Under the pieces are notes generated by a model, which ran no database searches, was not told the origin of the DNA, and saw only the letters and a program-made list of their open reading frames with translations. A stretch of 64,000 nucleotides of DNA from NCBI RefSeq assembly GCF_030297015.1, contig NZ_AP028056.1, positions 2,986,939 through 3,050,938 of the forward strand. Reading direction: 5' to 3'. Shown here one piece after another: positions 41,936 to 43,302 of the stretch; within the stretch, counting starts at the first letter, position 1; every line of letters starts with the position of its first letter. A program made the position numbers and the translations under genes. The DNA comes from Brooklawnia propionicigenes. GTDB lineage: Bacteria > Actinomycetota > Actinomycetes > Propionibacteriales > Propionibacteriaceae.

Positions 41936-41961
41936 GGAATACCCTGGTGGCCGGTGGCGTT
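41936..41961 (+). promoter_or_regulatory. SigR/SigH-type promoter upstream of sigR (autoregulatory)
   Basis: GGAAT (41936-41940, in GGGAAT) and GTT (41959-41961) are separated by exactly 18 bases. This is the consensus of promoters read by the SigR/SigH group of ECF sigma factors. Transcription would begin about 9 bases past GTT, at or next to an in-frame ATG (41971). Confidence 0.75.
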
Positions 41962-42052
41962 TCAGACAATATGTCGACGGCATTGCACAGACAGCGAAGC
42001 GAGGTGTTGACCCGCAGTTCTGGCGGGTACTGCCCGCTGCTGCGCGATTCGG

Positions 42053-42058
42053 TAGTGT
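42053..42058 (+). promoter_or_regulatory. Probable housekeeping -10 element of sigR
   Basis: TAGTGT lies 8 bases before the ATG at 42067, with no ribosome-binding site, so it would give a leaderless mRNA for the short SigR form. Confidence 0.45.
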
Positions 42059-42066
42059 TGGACTCG

Positions 42067-42678
42067 ATGATCACTCCCAGCACCGACATGCGTGAGGTCG
42101 AATCCGAAGACGAGCGCGCCGCCCGATTCGAGCGCGACGCGATGGGCTACCTCGACCAGTTGTACGGTGCTGCCCTGCGGATGACACGCAATCCAGCCGA
42201 TGCTGAAGACGTGGTTCAGGAGACGTACGCCAAGGCATTCAGCTCCTTCGAGCAGTTCACCCCCGGAACCAACCTCAAGGCGTGGCTCTACCGCATCCTC
42301 ACCAACACTTACATCAATTCCTATCGCAAGAGCCAGCGTCAGCCCCAGACCAGCGGCTCTGCCGACGTGGAGGATTGGCAGCTGGCACGCGCCGCATCCC
42401 ACACCTCTGGTGGGCTTCCGTCCGCCGAGCGTGAAGCCCTGGATCGGATGTCGGACCCGGTGGTGACCGAGGCGCTGGATTCGTTGTCTCCCGATTTCCG
42501 GGAGGTCGTGCTGCTGGCCGACGTCGAGGGATTCTCATACAAGGAGATCGCCGAGATCATGGGAACCCCGATCGGCACCGTGATGTCCCGGCTCAACCGG
42601 GCGCGCGGTCAGCTGAGAACAAAACTGGGTGACTATGCGGCCACCATGGGTATCGGTCAGGAGAACAAGAATGACTGA
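42067..42678 (+). CDS. sigR: ECF sigma factor SigR/SigH (thiol-oxidative and heat stress)
   Basis: A 203-aa ECF sigma factor. Region 2 shows [27 protein letters not shown]; region 4 shows [23 protein letters not shown] and [11 protein letters not shown]. Together with the adjacent zinc anti-sigma factor and pdtaS/whiB1 nearby, this matches SigH of mycobacteria and SigR of Streptomyces, which switch on thioredoxin, mycothiol and proteostasis genes. ATG 42067 begins the conserved protein. The frame is also open upstream to ATG 41971, which would add 32 residues (MSTALHRQ...). Its stop overlaps rsrA by 8 bases. Confidence 0.93.
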
Positions 42679-42946
42679 GAATCCCGGGCTCGTTCCCGAA
42701 GATCCGTGTGTGTTTGCCATGCGGAGTGTGCATGATTTTCTGCATGGCGAGTTGCCCGAGTCGACGGCCGATGAGATCCGTCTCCATCTGATGGCCTGCG
42801 AGAACTGCATGGACCACTTCGATGCGGAGCAGTTCATCAGTGCGATGTTGCGGCGCTGCTACGGGCCTACGGTGGCACCCGCCGGTCTGCGGGTTCGTGT
42901 CTCGCAGCTGAGTATCCAGATCCGCACCGAACCTCCGCAGGCCTGA
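42671..42946 (+). CDS. rsrA: Zinc-binding anti-sigma factor (RsrA/RshA type)
   Basis: A 91-aa redox-sensing anti-sigma factor for the preceding SigR. The ZAS signature H-x3-C-x2-C is H39-L-M-A-C43-E-N-C46, and Cys13 completes the four-ligand zinc site seen in RsrA. In that family, disulfide stress oxidises the Cys residues, zinc is lost and the sigma factor is released. The start overlaps the sigR stop by 8 bases, giving coupled translation. It has no membrane segment, so it is cytoplasmic. It ends before a bidirectional terminator. Confidence 0.93.
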
Positions 42947-43023: not shown

Positions 43024-43098
43024 TCAGGCGTTGGGGCGCTTGCCGTGATTGGCAGGGTTCTTGCGACGATCGCGACGCTTGCGGCCACCTTTTCCCAT
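43024..43098 (-). CDS. 50S ribosomal protein bL37 (24 aa)
   Basis: A 24-residue, highly basic protein: M-G-K-G-G-R-K-R-R-D-R-R-K-N-P-A-N-H-G-K-R-P-N-A. It matches the actinobacterial large-subunit protein bL37 known from mycobacterial ribosome structures, including the A-N-H-G-K-R-P-N end. A very strong GGAGGT ribosome-binding site lies 7 bases before the ATG. It is convergent with rsrA across a terminator. It is too short for most gene finders. Confidence 0.93.
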   Translation of the reverse strand: MGKGGRKRRDRRKNPANHGKRPNA

Positions 43099-43302
43099 GA
43101 TTGAGACCTCCAGATTCGGGTGTGTGCGCTGAACGCGCAACTCACTATCTTGCCAAAACCTAGCAGCGAATCCCAAACCGGCGATCGGCCGGCCACCGGG
43201 CCCGCCGGCTGCGCCGGGAGGCGCCCATAGCGGGCCACGGCGGCGGGCGGCGACCAGCGCCGCACGGTGGGATGTGGTGCCTCGCGGATGGGGGCAGCCG
43301 TC

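Follow-up and report, generated by a model that had tools for sequence, protein, structure and literature searches.

A conserved two-promoter arrangement at sigR of Brooklawnia propionicigenes predicts two N-termini of the sigma factor

The organization of the sigR locus of B. propionicigenes is summarized in Table 1. All positions refer to the window, i.e., the whole stretch of 64,000 nucleotides that was analyzed from a genome with a size of 3.21 Mb. The score of the sigR product places it among the SigR/SigH-type ECF sigma factors, and the stop codon of the gene (TGA, 42676-42678) lies within an 8-nt overlap with the following anti-sigma factor gene, as read directly from the window. The latter is located directly 3' of sigR and its product contains the H-x3-C-x2-C motif (HLMACENC in the translation) in addition to a zf-HC2 domain above the cut-off; it scores below the equivalog cut-off for RsrA (TIGR03988; 49.2 vs. 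62.5 bits). A DoxX-like gene and the EPSP synthase gene aroA are located on the opposite strand 5' of sigR. The small bL37 gene (25 residues; 43024-43101, minus strand), which annotation easily overlooks, is located between rsrA and the gene of a PdtaS-type histidine kinase.

Table 1. Positions of genes and predicted regulatory features at the sigR locus, numbered from the first letter of the window.
Feature	Position	Strand	Characteristics
P2, candidate SigR-type promoter	41936-41961	+	-35 GGAAT(A) 41936-41941 (GGAAT 41936-41940); -10 GTT 41959-41961; spacer 18
Predicted long-form start and 32-codon extension (SigR')	41971-42066	+	ATG 41971-41973, 9 nt after GTT
P1, candidate -10 hexamer	42053-42058	+	TAGTGT (TANNNT); gap of 8 nt to the short ATG 42067-42069
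sigR, short form	42067-42678	+	203 aa; SigH/SigR-family ECF sigma factor; TIGR02947 331.5 bits (cut-off 251.55)
rsrA-type zinc anti-sigma factor gene	42671-42946	+	91 aa; zf-HC2 31.3 bits (cut-off 22.2)

A sequence-only reading of this stretch had proposed that sigR possesses two promoters, and that the upstream one, a GGAAT-N18-GTT element ending 9 nt before an in-frame ATG, would add 32 residues to the N-terminus. This element, the frame between the two ATGs, which is open over 32 codons by direct read, and the TAGTGT hexamer 8 nt before the normal start are all exact in the window. The GGAAT-N16..20-GTT motif by itself is not significant (three matches in the window vs. 2.92 expected), and comparative conservation was therefore used as the deciding evidence. 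The family search for sigR retrieved a match in 175 of 198 Propionibacteriaceae genomes, and the upstream regions of 125 loci from 26 genera, including that of the window, were compared after L142 (same species with an identical protein) and L109 (another family) had been dropped. About 50 of the 175 matched genomes, including the whole genus labelled g21 (15 genomes), lie outside this sample, and the family counts are thus valid for the sampled part. The 125 loci share ancestry, and a value such as 124/125 thus does not represent 124 independent cases; the span of the evidence is 26 genera, and every feature is present in one or more loci of each genus.

The short start is preceded by a strikingly constant element. 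In 124 of the 125 loci, an in-frame ATG follows the end of a TANNNT hexamer at a gap of exactly 8 nt, and the sole exception, L201, exhibits the same spacing before a GTG. Since the test selects an ATG that has the hexamer, the neighboring gaps served as a control, and the same test resulted in 0/125 at gaps of 4-7, 9, 10, 12, and 13 nt and 1/125 at 11 nt. A cruder count that considered only the most downstream ATG yielded 108/126; several genes, including sigR of the window, contain a second Met further in. In 122 of 124 loci, the TA of the hexamer is carried by a GTA or CTA codon (-15 to -13), and the remaining two loci have ATA and TTA; within the sigR bodies of these loci, by contrast, GTA and CTA together represent 34 of 2403 GTN/CTN codons (1.4%). 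This bias indicates that the DNA rather than the peptide is conserved at this position, and an explanation at the protein level for the tail conserved ahead of this ATG was accordingly rejected in favor of the hexamer. Two nearby positions carry a conserved G (-16, 88%; -1, 98%), and no column from -60 to -18 of the profile exceeds the threshold, i.e., no -35 element was found for P1. Shine-Dalgarno matches of at least 4 nt at the short ATG are rare (5/124 loci, 4%) in comparison with shuffled copies (23%), and none was found at the short ATG of the window; this depletion could simply reflect that the promoter occupies that place. By its sequence, P1 is thus a candidate second promoter, placed downstream of the upstream start codon and ahead of the short one.

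The distance between hexamer and ATG is informative in the light of mapped transcripts from the same family. According to the available text of PMC3848588, the TAnnnT promoters of Propionibacterium (Cutibacterium) acnes are centered on average 9 nt before the mapped starts, and AUG or GUG codons are found at the transcription start site (TSS) or at most 10 nt from it: an overlap with a TSS was reported for 50 starts and a position up to 10 nt after it for 88, and the codons are AUG (68%), GUG (29%), and UUG (3%). Leaderless and near-leaderless mRNAs are hence common in Propionibacteriaceae. The main text of PMC3848588 contains no occurrence of sigH, “sigma factor” or ECF, nor does its available part describe a two-isoform gene. 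Transferred to the window, the spacing predicts a P1 start at about 42064-42066 with a leader of about 0-3 nt. The proposal of two leaderless transcripts is thus supported by the comparative promoter spacing, and the predicted P1 transcript is more accurately described as leaderless or almost leaderless.

The conservation of P2 is comparable. GGAAT-N17..19-GTT is present in 118 of the 125 family loci, and GGAA[TC]-N17..19-GTT in 123; the motif is absent in L209 and in L212, whose upstream sequence comprises just 83 nt. With strict GGAAT, the first in-frame start is located 7-10 nt after GTT in 115/118 loci, a count that disregards offsets below 5 nt (an additional in-frame start at 0-4 nt occurs in 9/118), and if GGAAC is allowed, an open in-frame start is found within 7-10 nt in 120/123. 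The strongest point of the P2 evidence is the frame bias of these codons. At offsets 8-9 after GTT, 106 start codons are in the sigR frame and two in the other two frames, and over the whole range of 7-10 nt, with GGAAC allowed, the start codons are distributed over the three frames as 127:1:6. Judged from these comparisons, place, spacing, and frame of P2 exceed chance, and sequence together with conservation supports a SigR-type promoter 5' of sigR that is followed by an in-frame start codon. Frame breaks in close relatives, which the sequence-only reading had named as a check, were not found in any of the six relatives of the same genus; these and the window (7/7) retain P2, an in-frame start at 7-10 nt, the open extension, and the P1 gap of 8 nt.

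Single loci deviate from this scheme. The in-frame GTG after P2 runs into a stop codon in L154, and the long start of L208 and L214, which belong to the same genus, is located 33 and 17 nt after GTT with GGAGG or AGAGG ahead. Together with L008 these two loci represent a natural change of the long SigR start from a leaderless to a Shine-Dalgarno type within Propionibacteriaceae, thereby offering a usable comparison pair.

The precedent for two SigR isoforms is Streptomyces coelicolor, and the autoregulated upstream promoter with an unstable extended product to which the sequence-only reading refers agrees with the available text of two papers, according to which p1 directs the short, stable sigma-R and p2 the long, unstable sigma-R' (PMC5472188, PMC4921905). 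The short form starts at a GTC codon, as documented by codon changes (PMC5472188). The locus of B. propionicigenes resembles this system in the sigR-rsrA operon, the putative autoregulated upstream promoter, the second downstream promoter, the in-frame start between them, and the predicted extended form. It differs from most Streptomycetaceae, with their leadered long form and a short GTC start with Shine-Dalgarno sequence, in that each start falls into the start region of its own promoter and the short form begins with an ATG that lacks a Shine-Dalgarno sequence; neither a GTC short start with Shine-Dalgarno sequence nor a leadered long form was found at this locus.

This difference holds for most of the Streptomycetaceae sample. 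None of the 30 loci (0/30) showed the P1 gap of 8 nt or a near P2 start, in a P1 test that, as for the named loci below, considered ATG, GTG, and TTG and to which a leaderless GTC is invisible. In 27/30 loci, a distance of 40-75 nt separates P2 from the next in-frame ATG, and a Shine-Dalgarno-like match of at least 4 nt precedes this long-form ATG in 27 of the 29 loci that have it. A GAGG-type sequence ahead of the GTC is present in 23/33 loci, probably a lower bound because the strict search demanded that GTC be followed by a codon for Thr or Ala. The clean split is spoiled by L264, one of four more loci of a family taken for Streptomycetaceae (f19), with an in-frame ATG 7 nt after GTT.

The distribution of the two features beyond both families is patchy. 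Both the P1 gap of 8 nt and a P2 start at 7-10 nt are present in all named loci of Nocardioides (10/10) and Cellulomonas (5/5). Ornithinimicrobium, Janibacter, and Nostocoides have the P1 gap of 8 nt and a first P2 start 15-37 nt away, and neither feature was found in the named loci of Actinomadura, Actinocorallia, and Catelliglobosispora. A class-wide survey of 76 loci from 39 other families (one to ten loci per family) detected P1 with a gap of 7-8 nt in 28 families and a P2 start 7-10 nt after GTT in 23, a family being counted if one or more of its loci showed the feature. Both features co-occur in one locus in 15/39 families (22/76 loci), and the double-leaderless build is hence not universal. 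Start codons at 7-10 nt are distributed 34:1:9 over the frames, which extends the frame bias beyond Propionibacteriaceae, with the proviso that single hits may be due to chance. From these sequence comparisons, the class possesses at least two builds of one SigR circuit.

Further relatives of the circuit are found in mycobacteria and corynebacteria. The sigH gene of Mycobacterium smegmatis and M. tuberculosis is an ortholog of sigR. Work by Kim in 2009 reportedly revealed a larger, unstable SigH in M. smegmatis after thiol stress. In a family whose assignment to Mycobacteriaceae is a guess (f7), the P1 gap of 8 nt is present in 2/10 loci and the P2 start at 7-10 nt in 3/10. M. tuberculosis sigH is reported to have two promoters, with the upstream one recognizable by SigH, and sigEp1 is called leaderless in the available text of the same paper, which does not so describe the sigH promoters (PMC4921905). 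A study on M. tuberculosis SigH lists four starts downstream of annotated initiation codons, which could point to alternative forms or mis-annotation, and three within 5 bp of such codons (PMC4803200). The sigH-rshA operon of Corynebacterium glutamicum is, like the arrangement predicted here, a SigR-type autoregulated multi-promoter operon, but a leadered one, whose three reported starts precede the initiation codon of sigH by 22, 89, and 93 nt (PMC3489674). No description of leaderless SigR/SigH isoforms was found in the available literature on these isoforms and on leaderless starts, in which subscription journals are poorly covered. The sigma-R/sigma-R' circuit is thus known, and, judged from comparative sequence data, the locus represents a distinct and conserved double-leaderless build of it.

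It is likely, on the basis of the sequence comparisons, that sigR of B. propionicigenes has two promoters and two N-termini and that promoter choice sets the N-terminus. Transcription from P1, presumably by the housekeeping sigma factor, would start at the short ATG or 1-3 nt ahead of it, and translation from the 5' end of this message would provide short SigR, which RsrA would hold inactive. In Streptomyces, oxidation of RsrA releases SigR. In the same manner oxidized RsrA would free SigR, which would then fire P2. The P2 message is predicted to begin at or beside the in-frame start codon and would thus encode SigR' with its 32 extra residues. On this message the short ATG would be internal and, lacking a Shine-Dalgarno sequence, hardly usable, so that P2 should give almost only the extended form, from which the extension follows. 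If the 5'-terminal start alone is efficient on the P2 message, one would expect a preserved frame together with an almost unconstrained amino-acid sequence. The outcome would be an autoregulated burst of a separate isoform under thiol stress, and SigR' may, by analogy with S. coelicolor, be a short-lived substrate of a Clp protease.

The extension itself shows this predicted pattern. Its length ranges from 15 to 58 codons in the family (L201, with a value of 6, was left out because its short start is mis-set), and the frame is still kept, which indicates that insertions and deletions preserved it. The pN/pS of the extension is 0.79 in 135 close pairs and 0.85 in 282 wider pairs, compared with 0.09 and 0.23 in the sigR body; the pairs overlap, so that all these ratios are descriptive and carry no statistical tests. 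In close pairs of equal length the in-frame ratio of the extension is 0.82 compared with 0.93 out of frame, a difference too small to be a sign of a conserved degron, and a conserved peptide degron is hence unsupported. Judged from these comparisons, the extension keeps its frame and hardly its amino-acid sequence.

The near neutrality of the extension, its variable length, and the scarcity of Shine-Dalgarno matches at the short ATG would equally be expected if the extended isoform were a functionless by-product of the leaderless normal start, with an unavoidable extension and unchanged stability. We regard this explanation as possible, but not as the probable one. The extension of Streptomyces is about equally free (pN/pS 0.86 vs. 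0.05 in the body; 60 pairs), and it has been kept there despite two leadered starts and a separate Shine-Dalgarno sequence for the short one; the long form is reported to be unstable nonetheless (PMC4921905). The absence of sequence constraint is therefore no argument against turnover, and by analogy an unconstrained tail can still act as an instability tag. With respect to B. propionicigenes, we slightly favor an unstable SigR', again by analogy. A second explanation accepts P2 and assumes that its message is mainly read from the short ATG, with an incidental upstream start and one single protein. Openness of the frame is weak evidence against it, because chance alone leaves many frames open in high-GC DNA: of 118 loci, 114 have an open sigR frame from P2 to the short start, but 83 have an open frame other than that of sigR. 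The preference for the sigR frame at offsets 8-9 (106 vs. 2) and the rarity of Shine-Dalgarno matches at the short ATG make this explanation improbable. That only the long protein exists, with ATG 42067 as an internal Met and TAGTGT as a chance match, gains something from the frame being open far upstream, up to a GTG at 41947, and is very hard to reconcile with a hexamer at the same gap in 124/125 loci that is built from GTA/CTA codons otherwise used at 1.4%.

The two-promoter reading leads to a tentative proposal about the origin of the extended form. A leaderless normal start might force a new protein form from any autoregulated upstream promoter, and SigR' would then result from the mode of translation and not from selection on the extension sequence. 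Leaderless starts may also replace the role of the Streptomyces GTC in holding SigR low relative to RsrA, and they could be IF3-sensitive. IF3 is known to disfavor leaderless starts. The 3.25-kb infC locus of the same genome contains no GGAA-N-GTT site in the region examined, which counts against the full IF3 loop of Streptomyces, and a Streptomyces-like IF3 feedback was rejected for this reason. The infC frame of this locus (L141) reads ...TVISNEFRINERIRV... and may start with a non-ATG codon; the start codon of infC is often different from ATG.

If the two-promoter reading is true, the start position of the message alone decides which of two proteins is made from one gene, and a Shine-Dalgarno sequence is needed at neither start. 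The two-isoform SigR circuit would then have been kept across actinobacteria while its translational hardware was rebuilt, thereby providing a clean test case for the purpose of leaderless starts, and the sigR annotation of Propionibacteriaceae should carry two N-termini.

The predicted SigR regulon of the genome was surveyed with the same motif. GGAAT-N17..19-GTT occurs at 113 sites, and 20 of the 21 GGAATA sites among the about 100 matches listed were examined. The Pfam domains of ten genes 3' of such sites comprise Clp_N/AAA (ClpB-like), AhpC-TSA, a pyridine nucleotide-disulphide oxidoreductase (trxB-like), a ferritin-like protein, thioredoxin, Hsp70, nitroreductase, a helix-turn-helix protein, Hsp20, and YceI. 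These redox and chaperone genes make a functioning SigR regulon likely. In nine of the ten genes, the chosen start (longest frame) is located 32 to 136 nt after GTT; that of the tenth, the helix-turn-helix protein, is ambiguous. The leaderless build thus appears to be specific to sigR and not a general property of SigR promoters. The other ten of the 20 sites probably include chance matches, and in two of them an ATG follows GTT at a distance of 14 and 17 nt.

Two minor observations concern individual sites. Upstream of trxB (L270; G000:C1:1550670-1551970), an ATG at +6 after a SigR-type site opens a 12-codon frame whose stop codon overlaps the trxB start; this short frame was not found in the readable loci of the same genus and was rejected as a real feature, as it is probably due to chance. 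An identical 25-base GGAAT...GTT string is present twice in the genome (G000:C1:331961-331985 and 763741-763765) and perhaps represents a repeated element.
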